Shown: positions 12,071 to 53,237 of the stretch, in pieces
Layout: the number at the start of each line of letters is the position of its first letter
Numbering within the stretch: the stretch's first letter is position 1
Assembly (NCBI GenBank): GCA_030435675.1
Contig: CM059624.1
Location: forward strand, 14,780,769-14,844,768
Length of the DNA stretch: 64,000 bases
DNA from: Steinernema hermaphroditum
Taxonomy: Eukaryota > Nematoda > Chromadorea > Rhabditida > Steinernematidae
Direction: 5' to 3'
Made by a program: the position numbers and the translations under genes
The notes under the pieces: generated by a model
What the model saw: only the letters and a program-made list of their open reading frames with translations
What the model was told of the DNA's origin: nothing
Database searches by the model: none

Positions 12071-12931
12071 TCAACGGCAGTATATCTCTATTTCTTCTAC
12101 AGTGTCCGAAATAGTGATCGCTAACATCTTTTCTCTTAGAGGTTCCTGCCAAACGACGGTTGTCCATGGAGTGGGCCAGTCGTCCGGAATGACCGCAAAT
12201 TGCGGGTAGAGATATCTGAATCTGTTCAAAGGAAATGGGGGACTTCCTCTAAGATAGAAATTAGTCAGTTCTCCATTGAAGAAGCGGTCGAACACACAAG
12301 TAACCATGTTGAGGTCGAGTCTCAGATTGGAATGTTCTATGGAAAGGATTCTAAACTTTGGCGATTTAACGAAGACTTTGATCAAGTCTTGGAAGTCCGC
12401 GGGCCAGGTAGTGTTCTCCGATAAATCCAGTGTTTTCAAATTACCTAATTCGATCTGACGTCTTATGAACTCGTGGCTCTTTTCTCCATAGTCGTCAATT
12501 GCGATGTCCGACAAGCCCTTTAGTCCATCAAAAATGATGTCGCATAGTTTGTTTGAGTGGGAGGTATTTAAAAATACATCCAGTGTGCAGTTACTAGCAC
12601 TTGATCGAATTGTTGGCAATGTTTCCGTCCGGAACTGTTCTCGAGTCACTTCCTCTGTTTCCTCGGGCGTGAACAAAACGTCAATGGACTCGACTCGGTC
12701 GTACTTGAAGTCTATCTCGAAAGGAACTGGTCTCGATTCAGAGAAAACCTTGAAACCGACTTTATTGTCTTCACTGTTCGATTTCAAGAAGAGCGTAAGT
12801 TGGCGACGCTTGTCTAAATTAGTTTCGGCTGTAGATGACCAGTATCCTAAGATGAGCTTAAGATGTACGATGTCATATTTGTCGAGTCGATGGATGACTT
12901 CATCGTAAAAGTTCAAAGGTAGATAGTTCAT
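12071..12931 (-). CDS. F-box-like family protein (copy B), intact
   Basis: Single-exon 286-residue ORF. The first 35 residues (LPLNFYDEVIHRL, then LILGYWSS) have the F-box pattern: a leading LP, hydrophobic helix spacing and a late tryptophan. F-box proteins couple substrates to SCF ubiquitin ligases; that role is inferred. The remainder carries the family signature blocks IDFKYDRVESI, LCDIIFDGLK, HEFIRRQIELGNLKTLDL, WPADFQDLIKVFVKS and CVFDRFFNGEL, with leucine-rich-like spacing. The family promoter lies upstream at about 12961-13003 and the family 3' tail follows the stop. The copy is convergent with the spacer repeats and divergent from copy C. Confidence 0.8.
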   Translation of the reverse strand: MNYLPLNFYDEVIHRLDKYDIVHLKLILGYWSSTAETNLDKRRQLTLFLKSNSEDNKVGFKVFSESRPVPFEIDFKYDRVESIDVLFTPEETEEVTREQFRTETLPTIRSSASNCTLDVFLNTSHSNKLCDIIFDGLKGLSDIAIDDYGEKSHEFIRRQIELGNLKTLDLSENTTWPADFQDLIKVFVKSPKFRILSIEHSNLRLDLNMVTCVFDRFFNGELTNFYLRGSPPFPLNRFRYLYPQFAVIPDDWPTPWTTVVWQEPLREKMLAITISDTVEEIEIYCR

Positions 12932-12960: not shown

Positions 12961-13003
12961 TCCATTATATGTTGGATTTGTCATGCATCAATGCATCGCA
13001 AAA
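12961..13003 (-). promoter_or_regulatory. family promoter of copy B (ATGCA inverted repeat plus TATA)
   Basis: The minus strand reads GCGATGCATTGATGCAT followed, 11-12 bases later, by ACATATAATGG. The same arrangement occurs before copies F, G, H, I and J. The start codon lies about 35-40 bases beyond the TATA. Confidence 0.65.
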
Positions 13004-26180: not shown

Positions 26181-29031
26181 TTAAAGCAATTTCCAATCCT
26201 TCATCAGATCGTTCAGATTCGACAGTTCGAGGCGCAGCTTCTCATTGAATTCCTCACTTTTACAATTGAGTCGTCCGTTGCAGCAGCATAAGATGTGAAC
26301 TTCTTTCTGCGTTCCCTTCGTAGGCACTATGATCTTGCAGTCGTTTTGCATTCCTGTAGTCAAGCATAGACGCCTCTCGTAGCGATCTGTAAAAAAATTC
26401 TCTTAGCTCTGGTTCAACAGTCTTCTGCACCTTGCGTTTCCAAATTCGCACTGCGATGAATGCATCCCGACTTCGTTCTATTCCGCTCCATCGTTAAGAA
26501 ACATCCTGGTCTGTAGCAAACTTCACGGTTATCATCAAATTGACATTCGAGTGCTTCCTAAGCGACACTTATGATGGGAAATGTAGAAAGATATGCAAAC
26601 ATACATCGTCTGACGAAACTTCCGTTCTCGATCGCCCATGGTACATGGAAGAGACCTTGTTCAGGAAAGTTACATCATTGCAAGGCTTGTGTTCCCTTGA
26701 CTCGCAGATGCACATGACTACGAGTCCGGTGGCAGAGGGCTCCATATAGCAGCCTGCATCGATGCCTCTCGTGACGTACGCACTACTGCTATTGATAAGC
26801 TGGGATTGGGAGATACCCGTAAGCACTCTCATCGTCATTCCAGATTGTGTACCCATGAAAGCAGCGCAGTAGGACGGCTCGGAGTCTTCGTGGAGCTTGA
26901 TGTTCACCAGGTCAGATTCTACGCTTCTGCCCTCATTACACTGTGATCGGGTCTAGAAAGGTGATCTATTAGGATCATGATAGTTTCTTATCACTACTTA
27001 CGTCTATCGCTCTCACTTCTGGAGAGTTAACATTGAAATTGCAAATTTTTCCTCCGCTGCATTTACATCGAAGAACAAATAACGTATTGTTGAGCATGCC
27101 GACAATTTTTCTCTCCCCTGAATATCGATTTGACAAAACTATCGGAACGCTCAACGAGTACCAGCCAAATCCGCGCATTTTTCTCCACCACTTGTCTTGC
27201 CAGTAAAAGCGTTCTTGGTCAGCTCGATTTCAAGTAGGGTACACTTGCTGAACTTCCCATATTCAACGTAATCTTTAACATGGAAGTTGTGGTCTGAAAC
27301 ACTTCCGTAAACCGACAAAGTCTCAAGGGTTAACTGACTTTCAATCAAATTAAGTCGCTCGTAGTTCGGCAGATGGTACTGAACACAACCCTTTTCAGTG
27401 TACAGATATTCGTTCGGGTTAGCCGGGCATTTCTTCAGAGCGATGTTCTGGCTTTCGAACTGATTACTCGTACTCATCTCTTTCCACACAGTTTTATTCA
27501 TTCCTATCACTATTTCTCTCTGAAAACACGGGACATTAAAGCTCGGAAACAAAGATAACTATTTTACCGCGTAGGCCAAATTGCATAGATCTGTTCCGCG
27601 ACAACAACAGTAGCGCGTGAACTTCGTGCTTAACTTCGACTGCATATCAAATGGACACTGAATGTCATCAAGTTCGACTTCACAATAAATGGATACGTTC
27701 CGCTCATGCAACATCCGCAAACATCGCTGGTCCCGCTCACGTGTGGCAGCTCCACTTTGAAATTCCATTTGGTTACCCACTAGTCCAAAAAAACGAAGAG
27801 TCATGAAACACGCATCAGCTGATGCTGCGCTGTATGGTTCGCCCCTATCATAAGTTTGTTTGAACTGTCCATTGGAATGTATATAGCCTTCGAACTGGAA
27901 ACAGCGCGTGTACTGACGACGATTGCTAAGCTTGTACGTGCATCCCTCAAGATCGTTTCGACAACAACATTTCAGCTCGACCGGGTCATGTAAGCCTTTG
28001 TAGTCCCAAAAGCATATGTTATTTGTCGATTTGCTGTCCTAAAAGGGCCGTTAAATGATTAAAGGCGTTCCATGTGACTTACCAATAAACAAGTTTTCCA
28101 CATCTCATTCAAAGCGGAGCGTTTCCGACTCATCCCATGATTGAACTCGTAGCTAGGTGATTTCGCATCGTAAAAAGCGTATACTGGGCAAACGGGAGTG
28201 TCGTAGTGCGGCGTAGCGAATTCATAACGTTCTCCATAAATGTCAAAGCACGGGGAGATAGACCGCTTCTTCAGGTGTGCGCCAGCAGTGTAGTTACCAT
28301 AAAAGTTCGACTTCTTCGGTTGGTAGTTGACCGGCAACAGCATTGTCAGCATTCGCGTTTCAATTTCGTCGATCGTTTTACCACAGTGGGCAGGTCGACA
28401 GCAGTACCACTTGACTTTAACCCATTTTGCTCGGCGGATACCTTCACCTACCTTCTAAACAATTTATGTGCATTGATTCAACGAAACAGACGTACACTCA
28501 ATAGCTTCACATGACCAATTCCGGCTTCTTCCGCTCCCGGCTTGCTGCACACCTCGACTACGGACTTGTGAAAAGATAGAGTATCGAAGATAGTCTTATT
28601 AAGAAGAACGGAATGAAGGAGGTCGTTGCTGTACATAACGTCTTTTAACATTTCGTCGATAGATTTGAAATAGAGGCAGTACGGCTTCGATGAAGTGTAG
28701 TGAGTCAATACTTTCAATTCGTCGTCACCACTGAACATATCGGTGCTACTCCACTAAAGGAAGAGTAGTCTAAACAGCAAAAACTGAAGATAACTCACAT
28801 TTTGTGAATCAGTACTATAAAACATCTTTAGAAAATCTTCCGGAAAAAAAGTCGATCGCATCTTATTCTCCGAGTGCTTCTTAACCCATGAGTGGATACA
28901 CAGATCTGAAACTTGCCCGTAGATGAAATTAAAATACGAGGAGACTCACCGTCATCGTTAGAGCCGAAGGCGACCGAAAGGAAGAGAACGCATAGAAGCA
29001 AACCCGAGAGGAGCACAGATTTCGTAGCCAT
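26181..29031 (-). CDS. large secreted cysteine-rich protein (tandem copy 2), intact
   Basis: Exons 28950-29031, 28799-28905, 28496-28753, 28083-28454, 27568-28038, 27162-27519, 27002-27117, 26605-26952, 26431-26557 and 26181-26386 join in frame to 814 residues. A signal peptide (MATKSVLLSGLLLCVLFLSV) leads into cysteine-rich modules: KWYCC...HC near residue 165, CCCRNDLEGC near 292, CCCRGTDLCN closing exon 5, CKCSGGKICN near 570, CICESREHKPCND near 680 and CCCNGRLNC near 785. The recurring CCC/C-x-C...C-N ending resembles the nematode ET module and Ly6-type folds; no function is known to me. There is no transmembrane segment or anchor signal. Exons 4-7 are far closer to copy 1 than exons 2, 8 and 9. 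Confidence 0.8.
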
Positions 29032-34580: not shown

Positions 34581-35049
34581 ATTCAGTGAAGTGTATTCGA
34601 TGAGTACTGATAGGGTTGTACTGAAGGTCCTTTGCTTGTGTCAGTGATGATCGCTCGTCCATCTCAGAAATCACATCCGATCGTCCATGCGATGATCAAT
34701 TCGGCTGCCAGAAGGCCTGGAACTTTGATACATGATTTAATACGAAAAAATTTTGAACAGGTATCTTTCACTTCAGCGCCCAGAAGGTATGTCAGGGAAC
34801 CGTAGTTCAAACGTCTAGTTATTTCATAAAAATATAAAAAAAATTTATAAAACGTTATTCAGAACAACGTCTTTTGCTTAACCAGTTGTTTAGTTGGTGC
34901 GTTGACCTACGTGTGAGCCTAGCCGGAGCCTAAGCCAAGCCTGGATGTTAGGTAATGCACAAACAACGTTGATAAACGCGAATAAGCGATAAACAAGAAC
35001 ATTCACTCTGTATGCGATGCTATTGTTTTGTTTTATCTTTTGTTACTTT
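34581..35049. repeat. spacer built of dispersed repeat pieces
   Basis: Positions 34663-34810 hold the 'cagaaggcctggaac' repeat (reverse orientation relative to 11450), and 34915-34960 holds the 'cctagccggagcctaagccaagcc' repeat also found inside the 40.1 kb foldback. No gene is supported. Confidence 0.5.
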
Positions 35050-35086
35050 GCGATGTGTTTCTGCATACAAAATTCGTCATATAACA
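35050..35086 (+). promoter_or_regulatory. family promoter of copy F
   Basis: GCGATGTGTTTCTGCAT is followed by TTCGTCATATAAC, with the ATG 38 bases after the TATA. Spacing and sequence match copies B, G, H, I and J. Confidence 0.7.
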
Positions 35087-35123
35087 CAGAAATCCCACGT
35101 TAGTTTTCACGCAATCGAACGCT

Positions 35124-36023
35124 ATGAACTCATTACCTTTGAAGTTTTATGATGAAGTCATCCGTCGCCTCTCCAACTCTGACATCGAAGGTCTTAGGCT
35201 CACCTCAGGATACTGGTCATTTGCAGCCGACACTCATTTCACCAGGCGTCGGGAACTCACGGCCACGTTAATATCGAATGAGGAAGGCAGTAAAGTCGGC
35301 GTCAGGCTTTACTGTCAGCCGAGAGAAGTACCTTTCGAGATAGACTTCAGGTATGATCGAATCGAGTACATGTACTTTAGTTTTCAATCAATCGACGAAA
35401 CAGCGAAAGAGACGCTGGAGCAGTTCCGAACGAAAACATTGCCAATGATTGCATCAATTGCTAGCGACTGTAGATTGAATCTAAGTGGGAGTACCCCACT
35501 CCCACACAAAGTATGCGACATCTTCTTTGATGGACTAAAGGAATGCAGTGGCTTTTCGGAAATCTGGGCCAACAACTGCTTATATGCAGAAAGCTGTCAT
35601 GAGTTCATCAGACGCCAGATCGGACTCGGTAATTTGAAAACGCTGATTTTATCGCATAACATTTTGTGGCCAGCGGACTTTCAAGACCTGATGAAAGTCT
35701 TCGTGAAATCAATCAATTTTAGGTGCCTTCATATAAAAGATACCAATCTGAGATTGGACTTCGACATGGTTGCTTATGTGTTCGATCGCTTTTTCAATGG
35801 AGAGCTGAGTGATTACTATCTTATAGGAAGTCCCTCATTTTCTTTGGATGATTTGAGATCTCTCTATCCACAATTCGCGGCGAAAACAAACATCGATCGA
35901 TTTCATGGGAAAACTATCATCGGAATTTGCAAGGTACCCCAGACAAATAAGGAGTTAGAGGTCACTGTTTCTAGTGGCGGACAGATAGAGGTACTTGGTC
36001 AGTCTGTATCTGACTCAATCTGA
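35124..36023 (+). CDS. F-box-like family protein (copy F), intact
   Basis: Single-exon 299-residue ORF. The F-box-like head is LPLKFYDEVIRRLSNSDIEG followed by GYWSF. The full set of family blocks follows: IDFRYDRIEYM, KVCDIFFDGLKECSGF, CHEFIRRQIGLGNLKTLIL, WPADFQDLMKVFVKS and YVFDRFFNGEL. It forms a direct tandem pair with copy G about 600 bases downstream. The two are the closest pair in the window, including the KVCDI variant and the motif NNCLYAESCHEF/DKCLYAESCHEF. Promoter and 3' tail are shared too. A role as an SCF substrate adaptor is inferred from the F-box-like head only. Confidence 0.85.
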   Translation: MNSLPLKFYDEVIRRLSNSDIEGLRLTSGYWSFAADTHFTRRRELTATLISNEEGSKVGVRLYCQPREVPFEIDFRYDRIEYMYFSFQSIDETAKETLEQFRTKTLPMIASIASDCRLNLSGSTPLPHKVCDIFFDGLKECSGFSEIWANNCLYAESCHEFIRRQIGLGNLKTLILSHNILWPADFQDLMKVFVKSINFRCLHIKDTNLRLDFDMVAYVFDRFFNGELSDYYLIGSPSFSLDDLRSLYPQFAAKTNIDRFHGKTIIGICKVPQTNKELEVTVSSGGQIEVLGQSVSDSI

Positions 36024-36187
36024 TTCATCTCCTTCCATAAGCTTTGCCTTCATTTGATAAATATGTTGTATGTTGTACATTGAATAGATTGGTGCCCCGA
36101 CAGAATCGCCATTAAAATGGCCAATGAGAGAATTGGATTGGAATCCTCACGCTCTATTTGCGTATATTTGCCTACATTATGGGATCA

Positions 36188-36440
36188 AGCGGATCCCAGA
36201 ATGTCCAACCATTGGTGCATCGCTGTTCTTCTCGCTCGGTTCTGCCACGCTTGACTTCTCAGCGTTTTCTTGAGTTCGTCTCGCCACCTTGTTTTGGGTC
36301 GTGCGAGTTGTCTCAAAACGATTGAGCTTTTTTCCGCCGACCATTCGCCGCCCCATCTTCCGCTCATCTTCCGATGAACAACGACAACGAATATCGCTTT
36401 ATGAAGGCCAGGTTCGGCACTGGACCAAATCCTGTTCACC
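36188..36440 (-). mobile_element. tail of a LINE-type reverse transcriptase ORF
   Basis: The minus-strand reading contains RPKTRWRDELKKTLRSQAW followed by spaced A..R residues and a stop. This is the usual C-terminal end of RTE/CR1-like LINE polyproteins (GRPxxRWxDDL...W...A.DR). Only about 80 residues remain; the catalytic domains are absent. It sits between the tandem F-box-like copies F and G, ending before the promoter of G. Confidence 0.6.
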
Positions 36441-36536
36441 GGTCAAAAGAGATTCACCATGTGTTCGCCTAACGGTAAACAAGAATCCTCACTCTTTATG
36501 CGGTGCTAACGATAACTGTTTTGCTTTGATACTTTG

Positions 36537-36572
36537 CGATGCGTTTTTGCATCCAAAATTCGTCATATAACA
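36537..36572 (+). promoter_or_regulatory. family promoter of copy G
   Basis: GCGATGCGTTTTTGCATC followed by TTCGTCATATAAC. This copy shows the inverted element most clearly (GATGC / GCATC arms). The ATG lies 38 bases after the TATA. Confidence 0.7.
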
Positions 36573-36607: not shown

Positions 36608-37486
36608 ATGAATGCCATACCTTTGAAGTTTTGCGAAGAAGTCATTCATCGACTCTCCATATCTGACATCGAGAATCTTAAGCTCACCTCAGGATACTGG
36701 TCATCTACAGCCGGTACTCATTTCAACAAGCGTCGCGAACTACGAGTTTCTTTGAAGTCGAACAAGAAAGGCACTAAAGTCGGCGTCGAACTTCGCAATT
36801 GGCACAACGAAGAGGTGGACTTCAAGTACGATCGAATCGAGTCCCTTCATTTCAGTTTGGTACCGCCCGAAAACACCGAGAAAGTGACGCTGGAACACTT
36901 GCGAACGAAAACGCTGCCAATGATTCGATCAATTGCTAGTGGCTGTAGACTGGATCTAAGTGGGAGTATCCCCCTCCCACGCAAAGTATGCGACATCATC
37001 TTTGATGGCCTAAAAGAATGCAGTGGCATTTCGGAGATCTGGGCCGACAAATGCTTGTATGCGGAAAGCTGTCATGAGTTCATAAGACGCCAGATCGGAC
37101 TCGGTAATTTGAAAACGCTGATTTTATCGCATAACACTTCGTGGCCAGCGGACTTCCAAGATTTGATGAAAGTCTTCGTAAAATCAACAAATTTTAGGTT
37201 CCTTAATATGAAAGATTCCAATGTGAAATTGGGCTTCGACATGATTACTTGTGTGTTCGATCGCTTCTTCAACGGAGAAGTGACTTATTTCGGTCTTACA
37301 GGAAGCCCCTCATTTCCATTGGATGATTTGGGATCTCTATACCCACACTGTATGGTGGAAACGCCCTTTCAGTCGGACTCTACTATTGGAATTTGGAAGG
37401 AACCCCAGACAAATAAAAAGATAGCGGTCTACTATGTTTCTGGTGGCGAAGAAATAGAGCTCGTTGGGCAGTCTGTATCTGACTGA
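36608..37486 (+). CDS. F-box-like family protein (copy G), intact
   Basis: Single-exon 292-residue ORF, sister of copy F. F-box-like head IPLKFCEEVIHRLSISDIEN then GYWSS, followed by DFKYDRIESLHF, KVCDIIFDGLKECSGI, CHEFIRRQIGLGNLKTLIL, WPADFQDLMKVFVKS and CVFDRFFNGEV. It differs from F by small in-frame indels and many substitutions, yet keeps an open frame, which suggests selection or very recent birth. The promoter upstream and the 3' tail (attcatttccgtccat, then ttgataaatatg) match those of F. Confidence 0.85.
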   Translation: MNAIPLKFCEEVIHRLSISDIENLKLTSGYWSSTAGTHFNKRRELRVSLKSNKKGTKVGVELRNWHNEEVDFKYDRIESLHFSLVPPENTEKVTLEHLRTKTLPMIRSIASGCRLDLSGSIPLPRKVCDIIFDGLKECSGISEIWADKCLYAESCHEFIRRQIGLGNLKTLILSHNTSWPADFQDLMKVFVKSTNFRFLNMKDSNVKLGFDMITCVFDRFFNGEVTYFGLTGSPSFPLDDLGSLYPHCMVETPFQSDSTIGIWKEPQTNKKIAVYYVSGGEEIELVGQSVSD

Positions 37487-37608
37487 ATCTGATTCATTTC
37501 CGTCCATAAGTGTTGCCTTCATTTGATAAATATGTTGTATGTTGTACATTGTATAGGTTGGTGCCCCGCGCCGAAGCCAGTTCTGAATATGGTTTGATAT
37601 TGTGCTAA

Positions 37609-38128
37609 CAAGGGAACATCCCCAAGTGCCCGACGAGTTAGGAGCTGAGATGTGGCGCGGCTTGTAGGCGGTCTTCTAACTAAGAAAACGCACATAGTCT
37701 CACCGGCCATAAATCAGTCGGGCTACCATAAAGATGGTCATGAAGTTGCAAAAAATTGTAAGGTCTCCTGGTGCGATGTCCCTGACTAGTCAGAATATAC
37801 GGTATTTTTGTCCGATTTTGGACGGGGTTTTTAAGGATTTCGGCATTTAGAGCCAAAATTAACATTACCAGTTAACAACCATGTTCTTTTAGCAAGAAAA
37901 GGGGTCAAAAAATGACAAAAAACTGACATGAAAACCGTATATTCTGACTAGTCAGGGACATCGCACCAGGAGACCTTACAATTTTTTGCAACTTCATGAC
38001 CATCTTTATGGTAGCCCGACTGATTTATGGCCGGTGAGACTATGTGCGTTTTCTTAGTTAGAAGACCGTCTACAAGCCGCGCCACATCTCAGCTCCTAAC
38101 TCGTCGGACACTTGGGGATGTTCCCTTG
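37609..38128. mobile_element. 520-base foldback MITE with TAA target duplication
   Basis: Arms of about 200 bases (37609-37805 and 37932-38128) are near-perfect inverted repeats separated by about 125 bases. The ends read CAAGGGAACATCCCC and its complement. The element is flanked on both sides by TAA, a three-base target duplication as made by PIF/Harbinger-type transposases. No coding capacity is present, so it would be non-autonomous. It begins about 120 bases after copy G. Confidence 0.85.
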
Positions 38129-38525
38129 TAAGATTTTACTTCGTTTGTGTTGCGCCATGTGGCCAGTTGTTATTGCCAGTTTTCAACATCGCGATGTCCC
38201 CTAATTATGCAATTTTATGTGTAGTTGTTCGGTTTGCTCCCACCACTAGCACATCTGTTTGTCGCTGTTGACGTGTGTTGCTCAGAACACATTGAAGCTG
38301 GTGTGTGATCAGTCAAAACGACTTTCCGTTATGCAAAACGGCCATGTGCAATTCCAAGGTAGATCTGTTCATTTTTTGCTTTGACTCATGTTTGACCCAT
38401 TTTCTCTTATTGTAGCCTTTGCTTTTGCTCATATAATATGGTAAACCAGAAATGCCTAATGAGCTGGAGCCGGCTCTGACCACCCGACTCGGCTCGGTGT
38501 TTCGCACCGATCTGGGCCCCTCATA
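38129..38525. other. spacer; GAGCCGGCTCGG-type repeat at its end
   Basis: No gene is supported. Positions 38460-38510 carry the gagccggctc/gactcggctcgg repeat also seen in the coronin intron and at 38700-38780. Confidence 0.45.
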
Positions 38526-41283: not shown

Positions 41284-44200
41284 GAAAAAGATGACCTGAG
41301 CCGCAATCGCCTTCTTGGACTGGTCTTGTCATCTGGTCCGGGGTCGTTCTGTTCTCTACTCGGCAAATACAAAAACGCAGACTAGCCGTATAACCGAGAA
41401 TTGTATCTGCTCCTTCGTGGAAGGCGTCTATTTTGTTAATAACAGGGCTGTATTGACACCGGATGATTGTGGCAACACTGGTTGTGAAATGTGTTATTGT
41501 CGGTCCTTTTGTTACAGAGTGTATACATGTTCCTCTTGGTTGATTAAATTGTGTGTTTTTTTGGTTGGTTTTCACCGAAACAGTTCGAATCGCCCTCTGT
41601 TTGGAACCACTTGTGCATGCCTTCGTCTTTTGTTTTTTCACAGAAGGCTAATTTAAAAGAATAATTTAAGCTTCAATGGAGTTCATTTGGCCTTTGAGTC
41701 TTGTTGTGTTATTATTTCAGCGTCATGACGACAAAAGAGCTACGTCATAGGAAAAACGAATATTGACGTCCATTATTTATCATGGGAAACATCGGATTCC
41801 CAAGCATTGTTTGCTGACTTTTTCTAAGGTAATCTGTTCAGCATTTACTCCAATCACCACAGTTTGTGATGAACAGAAGAGATGAGTTTTTGGTTAGTCC
41901 AGAGATGCCAATTGAGTCAACCGAGATTTCACGGAGTCGGCACCGCTGGGCTAAATCCATCTAAAAATCTACTTCCCTATTTTATATGTTTGAAATTGTT
42001 TTTTTTTGTCCGCTTGGGGTCTCAGGGAGAAAAAGGCCATCTTCGTTTTGAGACCGGATCTCGTGGACGGTGCTCTTTGAAAATGGAAATGTTGCCCAGG
42101 TGTTACAGGTGGGTCTATTTGGACCATTGATAAGAAATTTGTCTTTTTTGCAGTTCTGGCTAGATATTGCCAAAGCTGTTTGTACCCTTGCTTAACTAAC
42201 AGTTAACTAATAACAATGCTATGATCAGGTATTCACGAATAATTTATGTAATTTATACTCTGTTGGTTTACTTGAAGTAAATTAATAATTAGGAATATTT
42301 AATATCGAATTATATTAGTAATATTGTGAGCCTAAGTAATGAAACAACAACAGGTGTAATAACAGATTTTAATAGTTTATTTTGTTGAATTTTGATCGCA
42401 GAATGTTGACGTGGTTTACGCTTTACACATACACGTTTACGTGATGTTTCACCGATCCACTCGATTAATGTTATTAAAATTTATTAAAACTGATGATTTT
42501 TGAGCGTCGCTCTTTACCGAATACTTTAATAGATATTAATAGATATATTTATTTATATATGCCGTTTGGCCTTTTAGAAACTGCCTTCTTTTCGGTGATA
42601 ATCAGCTGTGTAAGGAACGCTATGCGTCGAAAAAAATAAGCGATCTTTCGTCTTTCTCGGAAATGGACGCCGCGAAGGGAGCGCTCGGAACTTCGGGTGC
42701 GATTACATATGACGGTTGGTTATTTGAGACGTTCGTTTCGGCGCTGTTTTTGAGTTTTTGCGATGCGTGTTTTTCGGCTTATGCATGTGTTAACTACCCA
42801 CATATTTTCCATTTCTTCTCAAGCTTTAGGGAAATGATACACTATTTGCAGTGCCTTCCAAAAAAGGTCTTTGTTTTGAAGAGTTTTTTTAATTGCTTTT
42901 CATTTTTGCAGTTTTTCTAAAGTAATTATTTTCCAATTAGATACTTCTCCGAAGCCCTCTTTATTTCGTCTCTCCTGAAAGCGATCGCCAGACGGACAAA
43001 TAACGTAATTCAGTAATTCAAGCGATCCGTGCTGAGCATAGCCAGAAAACAAACACTCCCCCTCTCGGATCCTTTTCCACAAATTCGATGTCGATAGGCG
43101 TTTTCCACTTCCGGATTGTCTGCTCTTCATTGCCAAGAAATTGAGTGTTTTCTGATTATTTCATTTAGTATAATGTTTTAAAAGTTGCCCTGAAACACTA
43201 CTTAAATACACTTAAATAGCCTTCCCATTAAGCTAATTCGGCGCACAAGACAGCTGTACACAATAAGTACAAAATTATCTAGAGATGAAGCGCACTACCA
43301 TCGGATTTTGGTGTACTTATCCTGAGGGCGACGCTCATCCTCGTTTTATGTTGTTTGCGAGAGGACATTTGAGTAAGCTTTGCATCCTCGAAAAACAGAT
43401 ATCCTGTACTTTGTGCAAATACAATGTTTGCTCAGAAGATCAGTGCTCGTCGACGGCAACGTGGAAGATATTTTCACCCCTATTCTGCAACAGCTATAAA
43501 AACGAATGCAGGATAATTAGTGATTTTTGTATGTGTCATGCCCGGAGATGTTCAGTTACAGCTTAACCAAAATGTCGGCTTGCTCTTTAGCTGATTTATG
43601 TTGCGATGAAGAAGTGAGCGTTTTCGTGGCGGGACACAGTCTGCCTGAACCTCCCAACTTCCCAATTCTGAAATTCAAACAATTGTTGTCGGAACCCGGA
43701 CTCAGTTTGGGCCTGTATATCCACGCGATTGCTATGACTGATCTGGGTTACGGTTAATGCCATTGTTTAGATCTAGAGGGACGATCAGACGAAATGCGAC
43801 CTTTCATAACTTTGATGAGTTGCTTAGGGCCCTTTGTTTTTTTATTTGCAGTTGTAGTGCATTGTATTGACCAGCCGAAATGAAGCAAGTGGGCTATTGA
43901 CCGTATTCTACAGTCACCACAATTCCGAAATTTGGGTTATGGGAGATCAGTTACCGGTTCGGTTTGGGCTACTGATTAACCAGCCACCTCTAGTCGAAAT
44001 GACACATAAATCGGCCAACACAAACCATGTATTGCAAGTGTTTTTATCTTGAACAGGGAACTGGAGTATTAGCGAAAGAGGCCCATAATTGGATGCGCAT
44101 TACAGATAATTCGTCTTGGGAAATGACCCGGACATTCTGTGTTTTGTTTTGTTAGTCTAGGTCGGAACCGACTATGGCAATCCTACAATGTCTGAGACGA

Positions 44201-46584
44201 ATGAGAGCCCCCCCCCCATTTCCAACGAGATCCGAACAGATCGTAGTATCCGCGCCCCCAGCGGAATCCAGCACTTGGCCGTTTCGGCTCTGTCTTCTGC
44301 TTGGACTTGATCCGTGTCGAAGAAACAAGAATGTTTCGATTTCAAGAGTGTTTCTATCAAAAGAGGAACTGTCTAGTAATTTGTTAGGAAACGCGACCCT
44401 CTTCGTGTATTAATTGTGCAAAAGATTAGGACTTAGAATGCGCAGGAATGAAAAAACCAGTTGAAAACGGGTTTTTCTGTGAGGCTGACACACGCACGTA
44501 GGAGTGTTCTTTAGTAGGGGACTCATGGAGGTCGTGGGGTGTCACATATTCGATGCTATATATTTGCAGTTCTCCGGTTCTGGGTGATCTGCTGATCTTT
44601 CATTGGTTAGTAGGTTAAAAAATAAAAAAATAAGTAAATAATTGTTTTTAGTACTTAGGTTGCCCACCCATTGTGAATTGTTTCATTTTTCATTCATTTC
44701 CTGTTTTCGTCGATTGATAAACGCGGCTGCGCGCTATTTCGCGCCTTTCTTTTGGGCTACGGGTCAAGTAGTTCTACCCGCTGGCAAGACACAGAAAGAT
44801 GAAGATAGACAGATGAAGGCGCACATAGAATCGTTTTCATTCCAGTCTTATCCGATGGACAATTGGTGGACTATCGGTTTCGGTCTCGGTCTCGAATGCA
44901 TAGCGCCATTGAACCGGTCTACTGGAAGTGTCTGTGCATTTTAAGCGGATGTTTCTCATTTCACAAGCATTACTTATTGTCTGTCTGTTTGCTTCCGCAA
45001 TCTGTTTTGTCACGTGGGAATCTGCGTACACATCAATTAACTCTGTCGTGTTTTTCAGCTCTACCCGTAGAAGACGGTGTTCCCCAAACATATGCAGACT
45101 TTTTTTAATAGTTACCTTCCTTACTCGCACAAGGAACTTAGCAATTATGCAGCGATCTGTTGTCGTTGGCTTTTTGGCTATTTTCTTTTTGGCTTATTGT
45201 TTCCGCCACGCGGCGATTATCAAACTACGTCACCGGAACAATGAGAGATGTTTTTGTCGTTTAGACATGGGGAAGTCAAACGGGAACAGCCGACGTTATG
45301 AGATGTCCGTTTATTTTATCCCCTCCCCTCCCCATAAAGAATTAAAAATTCGATGTATTACTCTAACAGCTGTTGATAAATGAACAAAATTCAAGATTTG
45401 GTCAATTTGTTTATATCAGTGATAGAAATCGCGCCGGGAACCCGAGGTGGAAAACCGATTTCGAACCGAGTCCATGTCCCAATACGAAAAGTCCGTGTCC
45501 TGCCACGGTTGTTTGCATTGCTGATATTTACCTTAGTAGTGAAGTTCGTAGGTTCGACCAACCTCTCTACCTACGGCAATGTTGGGTCCTGCCACGAACA
45601 CCCTTAATTCCTATAATTCTTTATTCTACCCATCCGGATCCGGGGTTTTTTGGGATTCGAGTCTGTTGGGAGCTCCGACTCGGCATCCATTTCTTGCACC
45701 GTATAATTTAAGCTACAATGGCTCAAAAAGTCATCACAAAAAGGTATTTTGTTCGGCCCACTCAAATCTAATGGTAGGTATAGCGTTCCTGTGAATGCAA
45801 TAATTAGTGCTTAGTCTTTTTTTGTGCTGGCTTTGTGTAACCACAGTGTTTACGCAAGACAAACAGAAACACAATCACCCTGTTGTTTAAGTATGCACGC
45901 ACTTGTTTTGATGTCCAACACATGTTTGTATGTGTGAAGATAGCTCTGATTGTTCCTGAACAACACTAGCCTATGTACTCAATGCTCTTGTTATTTTTGG
46001 GAATATTTTTTGGGGTTCGGATTAGAGAAAAACGGTTAATTGCGCTTGATGTTGGCAAAAATATCCTGAAAACAGTGAGCTGCTGAAGAAGAGCGTTCGT
46101 TTCTTTCGGCCTTTTGAAAACAATGCGTAATGTTTATGCCACGAAACCGGGCTGTAGGATTTCGAGAATTGCGTCGTGGATAAGTCAGCTTTTGAAGCCA
46201 TAATTTAGTTTCCTTTAGTTTTCCTATCCGTTGCTGGCGCTTGCAACCGCGTCACGTGGCGAATCGCCAGAGCGGTGACCAGTGCTTATCGTTAGGCTGT
46301 TGTCTCCGAGACTCAGCTGTCAGTTCAATGTTTTGCGAGGTCTTTTTTGAGAGTTCGAACTTTTGAGTGTCCAGCTTTTTTTATTTCTCTTCAATCAACA
46401 GGGAAATAACGGTTGAGTAATGAGCACGAATATTCAGAAACCTTCCGAATTGCCCGCCTTTGACAGGACTGAAACTTGGTTGATAGGTAGTCTTCTAGGC
46501 TTTTTCCTGTTTTTTTTTTGAACAGACCCGATGAGATATGAAACAGACTGCGATGCTATATGATAACTCGCCTGTTTTTTTTCT
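41284..46584. other. gene-poor AT-rich stretch
   Basis: I could not support a gene. Positions 42935-43140 carry a repeat ('ccagacggacaaataacgtaattcagtaatt') that recurs at 56540-56700 and 63215-63300. The short frames at 43285-43566 (cysteine-rich) and 43572-43757 start in good contexts but have no partner exons. A C run lies near 44210. 42200-42560 is very AT-rich. Confidence 0.4.
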
Positions 46585-46586
46585 TT

Positions 46587-46622
46587 GCAATGCATTTTTG
46601 CATTAGAGGTTCGTTATATAAT
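46587..46622 (+). promoter_or_regulatory. family promoter of copy H
   Basis: GCAATGCATTTTTGCAT, a perfect ATGCA/TGCAT inverted pair, is followed at the family spacing by TTCGTTATATAATG. Confidence 0.7.
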
Positions 46623-46656: not shown

Positions 46657-47538
46657 ATGGATGCCCTACCTCTGGACTTCTACGACGAAGTCATCCATCG
46701 ACTCTCCAAATATGACATTGAACCTCTCATGCTCTGCTCCTCGGGATACTGGTCATCTACAGCCGAAACTCACTACAAAAGGCGTCGCGAACTGATGGCT
46801 GGTGTGTCATTGTCATCTAATTCCGAGGGCCCTACGATCGGCGTCAAGCTTTGCCATTTGATAACAAAAGTTCCTTTCGATACAGACTTCAAGTACGACC
46901 GAATCAAGTCCATAGCCTTTATTCATCAGTGGAGCAACGAAACAGAGGAAGCGACACTGGAACAGTTCCAAAAGAAAGCTCTACCAATCATTCGGTCAAT
47001 TGCTAGTGACTGCACGCTGCGCATTACATTTGGAAATACCCTCCACTCACATAATCTGTGCGACATTATCTTTGATGGACTAAAGGATTGCAGTGGCCTG
47101 TCGGACATCAAAGTCGGCAACTATGGAGGAAAGTGCCACCAGTTCATAAGACGTCAGATCGAATTCGGTAATTTGAGAAAACTGGATTTAGCGCAGAACA
47201 CAGCATGGCCAGCGGACTTCCAAGACTTGATGAAAGTGTTCGTGAAATCATCAAAATTTGAGAGCCTTTCTATAACAAATTCCAATTTGGAGTTGGACTT
47301 CGACATGGTGACTTGTGTGTTCGATCGCTTCTTCAGTGGAGACCTGACCGGTTTCTATCTTGATGGAAGTCCCTCATTTCCCTTAGATAATTTAAGAACT
47401 CTCTACCCACAATTTGCGATGATTCCTGTGAGCTGGCCCTCTCAATGGTCAACTGCTCTTTGGAACATTCCCCTGAAATACAGGTCGTTGGAGGTCACTA
47501 TTTGTGGCAATGCAGAAATAACGGTACGACGCTGTTAA
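46657..47538 (+). CDS. F-box-like family protein (copy H), intact
   Basis: Single-exon ORF of 293 residues from the ATG at 46657. An earlier in-frame ATG at 46585 falls inside the promoter element, so the later start is chosen. F-box-like head LPLDFYDEVIHRLSKYDIEP then GYWSS. Family blocks follow: TDFKYDRIKSIAF, LCDIIFDGLKDCSGL, CHQFIRRQIEFGNLRKLDL, WPADFQDLMKVFVKS and CVFDRFFSGDL. The C-terminus (VSWPSQWSTALWNIP) aligns with B (DDWPTPWTTVVWQEP) and J. The family 3' tail (gattcatctccttcca) follows. It is an isolated intact gene in the repeat-rich half. Confidence 0.85.
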   Translation: MDALPLDFYDEVIHRLSKYDIEPLMLCSSGYWSSTAETHYKRRRELMAGVSLSSNSEGPTIGVKLCHLITKVPFDTDFKYDRIKSIAFIHQWSNETEEATLEQFQKKALPIIRSIASDCTLRITFGNTLHSHNLCDIIFDGLKDCSGLSDIKVGNYGGKCHQFIRRQIEFGNLRKLDLAQNTAWPADFQDLMKVFVKSSKFESLSITNSNLELDFDMVTCVFDRFFSGDLTGFYLDGSPSFPLDNLRTLYPQFAMIPVSWPSQWSTALWNIPLKYRSLEVTICGNAEITVRRC

Positions 47539-47945: not shown

Positions 47946-48055
47946 TTTAGTCCGCACTTTTCACCATGACATGCTTGTCACGTTTTGTGTTCACATGATA
48001 AGTCTTTTTCTAAAAAAAAATCGCAACTGCGATGCTAATGATAATTTCTCGCTTA

Positions 48056-48092
48056 GCGATGCATTGTTGCGTTTCGCACTCATCATATAAAG
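48056..48092 (+). promoter_or_regulatory. family promoter of truncated copy I
   Basis: GCGATGCATTGTTGCGT followed by CTCATCATATAAAGG. The inverted arm has one change compared with copy H. Confidence 0.55.
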
Positions 48093-48143: not shown

Positions 48144-48356
48144 ATGAATGCCCTACGTCTGAACTTCTACGCTGAAGTCTTCCAACGACTCTCCGACATA
48201 GCACCTCTTATATTCTGTTCAGGACGCTGGTTATCTGCAGCGGCAACTCATTTCATAAGGCGTCGCGAATTCAGAGTTTTGTTGAAATCGAACAGCGAAG
48301 GTACTAAAGTCGGCGTGACACTTCGCTCTTTTCAAGGAGAAGTTAAGTACAAGTAG
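48144..48356 (+). pseudogene. truncated F-box-like copy (copy I)
   Basis: The open frame keeps the promoter, the start and the F-box-like head (LRLNFYAEVFQRLSDI then RRREFRVLLKSNSEGTKVGV) but is cut after 70 codons (VKYK, stop). The following sequence is unrelated repeat. The missing part is the whole signature-block region. A copy of the 47.8 kb repeat ('caccaaagtgag...') follows at 48490. Confidence 0.75.
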
Positions 48357-51999: not shown

Positions 52000-52866
52000 T
52001 CAGTAACAATATAACGTTATCTGTCTGCCTCGAACAGTGACCTTTAACTTCCTATCTGTCTCGGGTAGCTCCCAAATGGCACTTGACCATCCAGAGTTCC
52101 AGTCCCAAGGATTCACCGCAAATTCTTCGTAGTCATATCTCAATTCATCCACGGGAAAAGTGGGACTTCCTTCAAGACCGAAAGCAGTCAGTTCCCCTCT
52201 GAAGAATCGATCGAACACACAAGAGACGGTGTCGAAATCCAAAAACACATTGGAATATGCTGTATAAAGGCTCATAGAATTAGGCGATTTCACGAAGACT
52301 TTGATCAAGTCTTGGAAGTCGGCTGGCCATTCAGTACTTCTCATTAAATGAAGTGCTTTCAAATTACCGAATTCGACCTGACGTCTTATGAACTCGTGGC
52401 ACTTTTCTCCGTAGTTGTCGACTTCGATGCTCGACAGGCCACGGCATTCTTTTAGTCCATCAAAGAGAGCGTCGTACGCTTTGTATGGGTGGGGCGTCTT
52501 CCTAGTTGCATACAATGTGCAATGACTAGCAACTGACCGAATCGTTGGTAGTATTTTCGTCCGGAAGTGTTCCTGTGTCTCTTCCGCTGTTTCGCTGTCT
52601 GATAGCTCACTAAAGTAAATACACTTGATACGGTCGTACTTGAAGTCTATGTCGAAAGGAACTTCAATTGGCCAAGAGTAAAGCTTGACGCCGACTTTAC
52701 TGCCTTCCTTGTTCGATGTCAACCGAACAGTTAGTTCGCGACGCATGTTAAAATGAGTTTCGGCTATAGATGACCAGTATCCTGAGGAGAGCTTCAGCTT
52801 TTTGATGTCAGATTTGGAGAGTCGATTGATGACTTCATCGTAAAACTCTAAAGGTATGGTATTCAT
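52000..52866 (-). CDS. F-box-like family protein (copy J), intact
   Basis: Single-exon 288-residue ORF on the minus strand. F-box-like head IPLEFYDEVINRLSKSDIKK then GYWSS. Family blocks: IDFKYDRIKCIYF, DALFDGLKECRGL, CHEFIRRQVEFGNLKALHL, WPADFQDLIKVFVKS and CVFDRFFRGEL. The C-terminus WDWNSGWSSAIWELP aligns with copies B and H. The upstream promoter is at about 52903-52935 and the family 3' tail follows the stop. It lies alone in repeat-rich sequence. Confidence 0.85.
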   Translation of the reverse strand: MNTIPLEFYDEVINRLSKSDIKKLKLSSGYWSSIAETHFNMRRELTVRLTSNKEGSKVGVKLYSWPIEVPFDIDFKYDRIKCIYFSELSDSETAEETQEHFRTKILPTIRSVASHCTLYATRKTPHPYKAYDALFDGLKECRGLSSIEVDNYGEKCHEFIRRQVEFGNLKALHLMRSTEWPADFQDLIKVFVKSPNSMSLYTAYSNVFLDFDTVSCVFDRFFRGELTAFGLEGSPTFPVDELRYDYEEFAVNPWDWNSGWSSAIWELPETDRKLKVTVRGRQITLYCY

Positions 52867-52902
52867 TGTTATTTGTGCAGAAACAACATCGGATTCGACC
52901 CT

Positions 52903-52937
52903 TACATGACAAATTTTAATGCAAAAATGCAGCGCAA
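52903..52937 (-). promoter_or_regulatory. family promoter of copy J
   Basis: The minus strand reads GCGCTGCATTTTTGCAT followed by TTTGTCATGTAAGGG. The inverted element is intact, but the TATA has changed from CATATAA to CATGTAA. Confidence 0.6.
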
Positions 52938-53237
52938 GGAAAGAAAACAGAAAAGCATCGCAGTCGTTTTGTATATAAATGTCCTGTGTGACATTGAGAA
53001 CCGACGAGTCCTCTATTGGCCTTCCGTCACGTTTTTACTTCTCTAACCAGTTAGATTTCGGATTAATGGTCCGAGTAAGACACGGGTTTTGTCAGCGGAC
53101 TCGTTCCGATCACTGGTTCTGCCCCATCATGTCCTCGAAATTTCATGTTGATTCCAACTTCATCCCATTGCAGCTGACACTTTCCGTTGTTCCTCCATAG
53201 TGTTCGGTCCTGACACGACCGTCTAGCCTTAACTGTT

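Follow-up and report, generated by a model that had tools for sequence, protein, structure and literature searches.

A constrained promoter element of a predicted F-box/LRR gene family in Steinernema hermaphroditum recurs upstream of other SCF ligase genes

Several members of a duplicated gene family in a short stretch of the genome of the insect-parasitic nematode Steinernema hermaphroditum are preceded by much the same short promoter sequence, which raises the question of whether this sequence is a constrained site, possibly that of one regulator, or a remnant of gene duplication. The window examined here, which is the whole 64,000-nucleotide stretch of contig C4 that was analysed, holds six such modules (B, F, G, H, I and J), all of which had been claimed in an earlier note on this DNA and all of which we could locate. 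On the forward strand, module F (35047..35084; core TTTGCGATGTGTTTCTGCAT; two mismatches to the composite motif defined below) lies upstream of gene F (35124..36023), which encodes a predicted F-box/LRR protein of 299 aa; module G (36533..36570; TTTGCGATGCGTTTTTGCAT; one mismatch) upstream of gene G (36608..37486; 292 aa); module H (46584..46621; TTTGCAATGCATTTTTGCAT; two mismatches) upstream of gene H (46657..47538), also a family member; and module I (48053..48090; TTAGCGATGCATTGTTGCGT; one mismatch) upstream of gene I (48144..48353), where the first 72 codons were matched and only a fragment of a family protein was recognised. On the reverse strand, module B (12965..13002; TTTGCGATGCATTGATGCAT; no mismatch) and module J (52902..52938; CTTGCGCTGCATTTTTGCAT) precede family genes B (12071..12931; 286 aa) and J (52000..52866; 288 aa) respectively. 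A spacer of 11 bp separates the 20-base core from a TATA-like box in F, G, H, I and B, and one of 10 bp does so in J, a module that the fixed-spacing genome scan missed. The box is CATATAA, as had been proposed, in F, G, B and I but TATATAA in H and CATGTAA in J, and the ATG follows it after 38–44 bp in five modules and after 58 bp in I, in agreement with the expected distance of about 40 bases, longer in I.

The inverted ATGCA-n4-TGCAT that had been put forward as the shared unit is only part of a motif that is itself real and under constraint: the repeat is perfect in B and H alone and has one mismatch in G, I and J, and module F was not recovered by a one-mismatch scan for it. Nor is the short repeat distinctive by itself, since its six matches in the window barely exceed chance (2.7 expected, with 3 of 100 shuffles reaching six) and one of them, at 26593, lies outside the F-box-like family. 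Likewise, a common upstream sequence for all six copies holds for F and G, which have TTCGTCATATAA, whereas H, J, I and B carry the variants TTCGTTATATAA, TTTGTCATGTAA, ACTCATCATATAA and AATCCAACATATAA respectively. A second GCGATGC occurs 5′ of modules F (35014..35020), H (46550..46556) and I (48029..48035) on the forward strand and of module J (52955..52961) on the reverse strand.

We read these genes as a lineage-specific expansion of predicted F-box/LRR receptors. The family gave 135 matches genome-wide, including fragments and distant relatives, most of them on C4 at 13.9–15.4 Mb, and its closer group (at least 45% identity) comprises 47 copies whose frames stay open from the ATG for 250 residues or more. 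Median dN/dS was 0.58 over 149 sampled pairs, which corresponds to mild purifying selection. Pfam assigned no family to F, G, B or J and gave H one match below cut-off; none of 39 members matched the Pfam F-box models, and just one matched the F-box-associated LRR model (E = 0.0099). An AlphaFold prediction for a family protein (mean pLDDT 87.4) has the F-box plus LRR-like fold, in which a repeat domain comes after three helices at the N terminus, and its ten PDB matches at E ≤ 0.001 were eight SKP2 complexes, one TIR1 and one chitinase, with low TM values (0.24–0.33) for the SKP2 entries. Among 5.8 billion proteins searched there were five relatives, all from S. hermaphroditum and none from outside it, one of which (55% identical to gene F) maps to C4 and three more to C1. 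With 135 genome matches and only five predicted proteins, a large part of the family may lack annotation or be annotated at other lengths.

Forty non-identical copies of the core yield the consensus TTTGCGATGCATTnTTGCATnAAAAATTCGTCATATAA. Among 59 aligned family promoters, the columns GCGATGCAT are 81–98% conserved and the TGCAT of the right arm 80–92%, and most columns further upstream fall below 0.3 bits except for a partly conserved GTGATG-like block. Pairwise identity over 44 genes (946 pairs) was 0.857 for 18 core positions, 0.699 for fourfold sites (about 70 per pair, in codons with identical first two bases) and 0.290 for the 30 bp upstream; the core exceeded the fourfold sites in 96% of the pairs. 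The claim that the rest of the upstream DNA has diverged is thus borne out for the 30 bp that precede the core, but downstream of it two promoter classes retain family resemblance as far as the ATG. The core–TATA spacer is less conserved than the core (identity 0.553), and conservation of the TATA box at the fixed offset was indistinguishable by bootstrap from that of fourfold sites. The distance from the core to this box is nearly fixed, as had been claimed: among 48 promoters with a good match to both core and TATA box, and with ties among TATA matches resolved toward 11, 40 have a gap of 11 bp and 5 one of 12 bp, whereas the distance from TATA box to ATG varies between 34 and 83 bp. Shuffles and a genome scan reject a chance origin of the composite. 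At least 14 of 18 core positions were matched in 53 of 62 family upstream regions compared to none of 3162 shuffled or reversed controls, and GCGATGCATTNNTGCAT-N11-CATATAA with up to three mismatches occurs 43 times in 90.6 Mb (the reversed pattern, not once), 41 of these within 260 bp upstream of family genes. Another match, at C4:13951015, lies ~500 bp upstream of a further family copy. The motif is therefore, as the earlier note had supposed, better conserved than its neighbours and far from randomly placed in the genome. We also observed that the composite match at C4:14869790 (L033), with two mismatches, is not followed by any family match over the next 0.5 kb.

A second GCGATGC upstream of the core was found in 12 of 53 promoters (0.12 expected), in 10 of the 12 at 14–34 bp further upstream. 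Two other words recur in the F-box cluster promoters: GTGATG or GATGNCATC, at 0–90 bp upstream of the core in 14 of 53 (1.1 expected), and TGATAA, often immediately ahead of the ATG and often as ACTGATAAGCT-ATG, in 28 of 62. The latter is similar to the nematode intestinal GATA site.

Noticed as the element of a single family, whose promoters it does mark, the core also marks SCF ubiquitin ligase genes that are not homologous to that family. Its left half, as the exact 12-mer TTTGCGATGCAT, has 56 matches in the genome. Of these, 28 stand no more than 260 bp upstream of one of the 174 F-box, SKP1-like and cullin starts entered, and the windows so defined amount to 0.025% of the stranded genome; 21 of the 28 belong to the F-box cluster, two to distant F-box relatives and five to SKP1-like genes. 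A Markov model expects 21–33 exact sites and 5–7 for the reversed pattern, so that this pattern is too lenient a control and the contrast of 56 with 2 matches is overstated; because composition by itself would already give that many exact sites, the count tells little and we relied on where the matches are. The other 28 exact sites have no entered SCF gene downstream. Reading the frames downstream of 32 other exact sites showed that one precedes an RBX1 gene (zf-rbx1, 2.4e-25; PDB RBX1 chains, 3.5e-62) and another a DCN1-like gene (Cullin_binding, 4.7e-10), with further sites before eIF5, BTB_2 and (below the Pfam cut-off) ELM2 type frames, or before nothing recognisable. Three frames look F-box-like by eye, and since profile comparison of two gave probabilities of 25% and 2%, they were left out of the counts. 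The sister word TTTGCGATGCAA has 40 sites, three of them at entered genes (two SKP1-like, one F-box) and 37 elsewhere.

SKP1-like genes were scored by match to at least 10 of the 12 positions in their upstream regions (~320 bp for all 61 genes, shorter for five): 30 of 61 reached this score on the sense strand, compared to 0.57 in simple shuffles, and 5 of 61 on the antisense strand. When four elongin-C-like genes, so labelled from a partial domain match, were removed and dinucleotide shuffles of both strands used, the figure was 30 of 57 against 2.2 expected. With the motif masked, the SKP1-like upstream regions fall into 26 unrelated groups, seven of which hold such a match. No core was found in the promoters of the two best-scoring SKP1 genes or of the four elongin-C-like genes. 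Two members of one SKP1 cluster (L141 and L144) have a perfect inverted pair, TTTGCGATGCA-n7-TGCATCGCAAA, a layout that the right arm of the F-box copies imitates. It is TTTGCGATGCA that makes up the essential unit, and the right arm is a degenerate, inverted copy of it. The constrained TATA distance belongs to the F-box family and is not general across SKP1-like promoters: measured from the core start, the first TATA-like word comes after 31–33 bp in the majority of F-box cluster promoters and after 27–30 bp in one of the SKP1-like clusters and in several of the distant F-box relatives, and 14 of the 30 core-bearing SKP1-like promoters have none within 75 bp of the core start, with 12 of the remainder at offset 29, mainly in one related cluster. 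Matches at the same threshold occur in 13 of 34 distant F-box relatives (1.43 expected) and in 3 of 7 cullins (0.40 expected), all three on the opposite strand and thin evidence in a set of seven starts.

SKP1-like and cullin genes are both numerous in this genome. The 61 Skp1_POZ matches, with clusters on C2, C3 and C4, amount to a large SKP1 expansion, and 39 Cullin matches on C1, C3 and C4 (e.g. C3:14.2–16.4 Mb), with several long uninterrupted frames clustered on C3, constitute a cullin expansion. C. elegans is given as having 21–23 skr genes (PMC4063957, PMC12919956).

A de novo count of 7-mers in 102 promoters (61 SKP1-like, 34 distant F-box and 7 cullin), with the F-box cluster excluded, led to the same word. 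These promoters form 55 groups without detectable similarity, none of which mixes gene classes, and GCGATGC was the top 7-mer, present on average in 26.3 of the 55 groups compared to 2.6 expected. Counting any member, it occurs in just 8 of the 24 unrelated SKP1 groups, many SKP1 copies being related to one another, in 16 of the 24 groups of distant F-box genes and in 4 of the 7 for cullins, and it is absent within 250 bp from 30 of 61 SKP1-like promoters and from 3 of 7 cullin groups. Genome-wide the word has 12,074 sites, or 0.033 per 250 bp; the core is thus common to non-homologous SCF promoters above the genome rate.

We consider it probable that the element is the binding site of one regulator common to SCF-ligase genes, acting as a proximal module beside the TATA box. 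The core TTTGCGATGCA, which has a weaker inverted TGCAT arm and precedes a TATA-like box by roughly one turn of the helix, would be bound by a sequence-specific factor, probably as a dimer or in pairs, that recruits or stabilises the TATA-bound initiation complex at a presumptive transcription start; the near-fixed phasing and the second GCGATGC of some promoters would fit a factor binding singly or in pairs. As the same site is present at F-box genes, many SKP1-like genes, some cullins, RBX1 and a DCN1-like gene, the output of these genes could be set together, and from the sequences we infer a single regulator. A wider reading, which we hold tentatively and which falls just short of probable, is that of an SCF regulon, in which a dedicated regulator reads GCGATGC beside TATA across the SCF classes (F-box receptor, SKP1-like adaptor, cullin, RBX1 and DCN1-like activator), possibly including the E2. 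If so, a portable promoter that each duplication copies along would keep a fast-evolving set of receptors wired to the core machinery.

Several alternatives bear on this. That GCGATGC belongs to a broad class of TATA promoters, as a general core-promoter or ubiquitin-system element of S. hermaphroditum, is unlikely, though the E2 genes and the sites away from SCF genes speak for it. None of six E2 promoters, a small negative control, has the 12-mer at 10 of 12 positions or better, yet two of the six have GCGATGC twice together with a TATA-like box, so this control is not clean. TTGCGATGC-N14-24-CATWTA occurs at 39 genome sites (four for the reversed pattern), 23 at entered genes and 16 without an entered SCF gene; these 16, like the E2 promoters, make a wider promoter role conceivable, as do the exact 12-mers before the eIF5, BTB_2 and ELM2 type frames. 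Against such generality, the 12-mer is no commoner outside SCF genes than composition predicts, GCGATGC occurs 12 times in the window where 8.5 would be expected, with family modules as most of the surplus, and the two best-scoring SKP1 genes and the elongin-C-like genes do without the word.

The two E2 genes concerned (L205 and L206, at C3:9.807 and 9.840 Mb) extend 11 and 16 codons beyond the profile positions, a surplus that an intron would explain too and that we take to be as expected of CDC34 or UBE2G types. CDC34 is the E2 that serves SCF, and judged from their surplus length these two genes may be of that type.

That the modules are inherited baggage, kept alike by recent tandem duplication and gene conversion and read by no shared regulator, is distinctly unlikely. 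The genes are indeed clustered on C4, and in two promoter classes the DNA from TATA box to ATG also retains family resemblance; however, in the same genes the core exceeds fourfold sites in conservation, and the DNA upstream by far more, it recurs at SKP1-like, cullin, RBX1 and DCN1-like promoters that are not homologous to F-box genes, and promoter groups with no detectable similarity, each confined to one gene class, have GCGATGC in common. On the first two of these grounds, common descent alone was largely rejected. Quite improbable as well is a bZIP factor of the C/EBP–ATF type, a class that serves stress responses, for which TTGCATCGCAA, on the opposite strand, would be a variant of TTGCATCA. 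The two share TTGCATC, but where the composite site core of this class, TGATGCAA, calls for T, almost every aligned copy has C (CGATGCA), and the site also takes in another TTGC arm. Least likely, and very improbable, is a POU-homeodomain dimer for which TATA spacing is secondary: ATGCAT-NN-[A/T]TGCAT resembles MORE-type sites, which are inverted ATGCAT half-sites, in its half-sites and, with two extra bases, its inverted layout, but the strongest columns include the conserved TTTGCG flank outside the palindrome, the left half is used alone elsewhere, and SKP1-like promoters have only TTTGCGATGCA in common, without the right half at F-box spacing, so that paired half-sites are not the conserved unit there. 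Judged by their consensus sequences, POU and C/EBP–ATF sites both fit poorly.

A regulator common to SCF-ligase genes, our preferred reading, can be compared with what is described for C. elegans. Two words from that species, ATCGATA and TCACACC, a short form of a T-box site, were rejected as being this element, since ATCGATA occurs in 2 of 102 and 0 of 62 S. hermaphroditum promoters and TCACACC in 3 of 102 and 2 of 62. Mutants of dnj-14 in C. elegans show co-regulation of F-box, skr and BTB genes, with ATCGATA reported as enriched, and there is a likeness in that a promoter word is enriched in F-box and BTB genes with skr genes in the same set, but the accessible portion of that paper describes no fixed spacing of ATCGATA to a TATA box (PMC4585785). 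T-box factors have been proposed as regulators of F-box and skr promoters (PMC6826161), a proposal that the rarity of TCACACC here does not match. The intracellular pathogen response involves CUL-6, SKR-3/4/5 and F-box and RING subunits: intracellular infection and proteasome block induce cul-6, skr-3/4/5 and F-box genes together, but not skr-1 (PMC4063957, PMC12919956); the word 'motif' is absent from the main text of the first (PMC4063957). At the level of sequence, S. hermaphroditum offers a likeness to this in that expanded SKP1-like genes carry the core and the two best-scoring SKP1 genes do not. By analogy, the element would answer a need similar to that for SCF co-regulation in C. elegans by different cis-acting means. 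Among the matches listed in a literature search for the core letters, no title or abstract opening concerned an F-box or SCF promoter, and a search whose scope left out most subscription papers and all preprints returned no paper on the element in Steinernema.

F-box genes expand rapidly in nematodes, and how new receptors are brought under one control with the adaptor, scaffold and RING proteins on which they depend is a question that an element common to non-homologous SCF genes makes directly testable. The element could also give access to the transcription factor involved and to the condition, be it development, stress or infection, that deploys the repertoire.

Two further features of the window were observed. 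A module-like stretch at 42757–42830, with TTTGCGATGCGTG followed by TTATGCATG and CATATTTT, stands without a family gene behind it. Directly downstream of gene G, at 37605–38132, lies a long inverted repeat with 215-nt arms that are 96% complementary and 98 nt apart, which looks like a foldback or terminal-inverted-repeat element.
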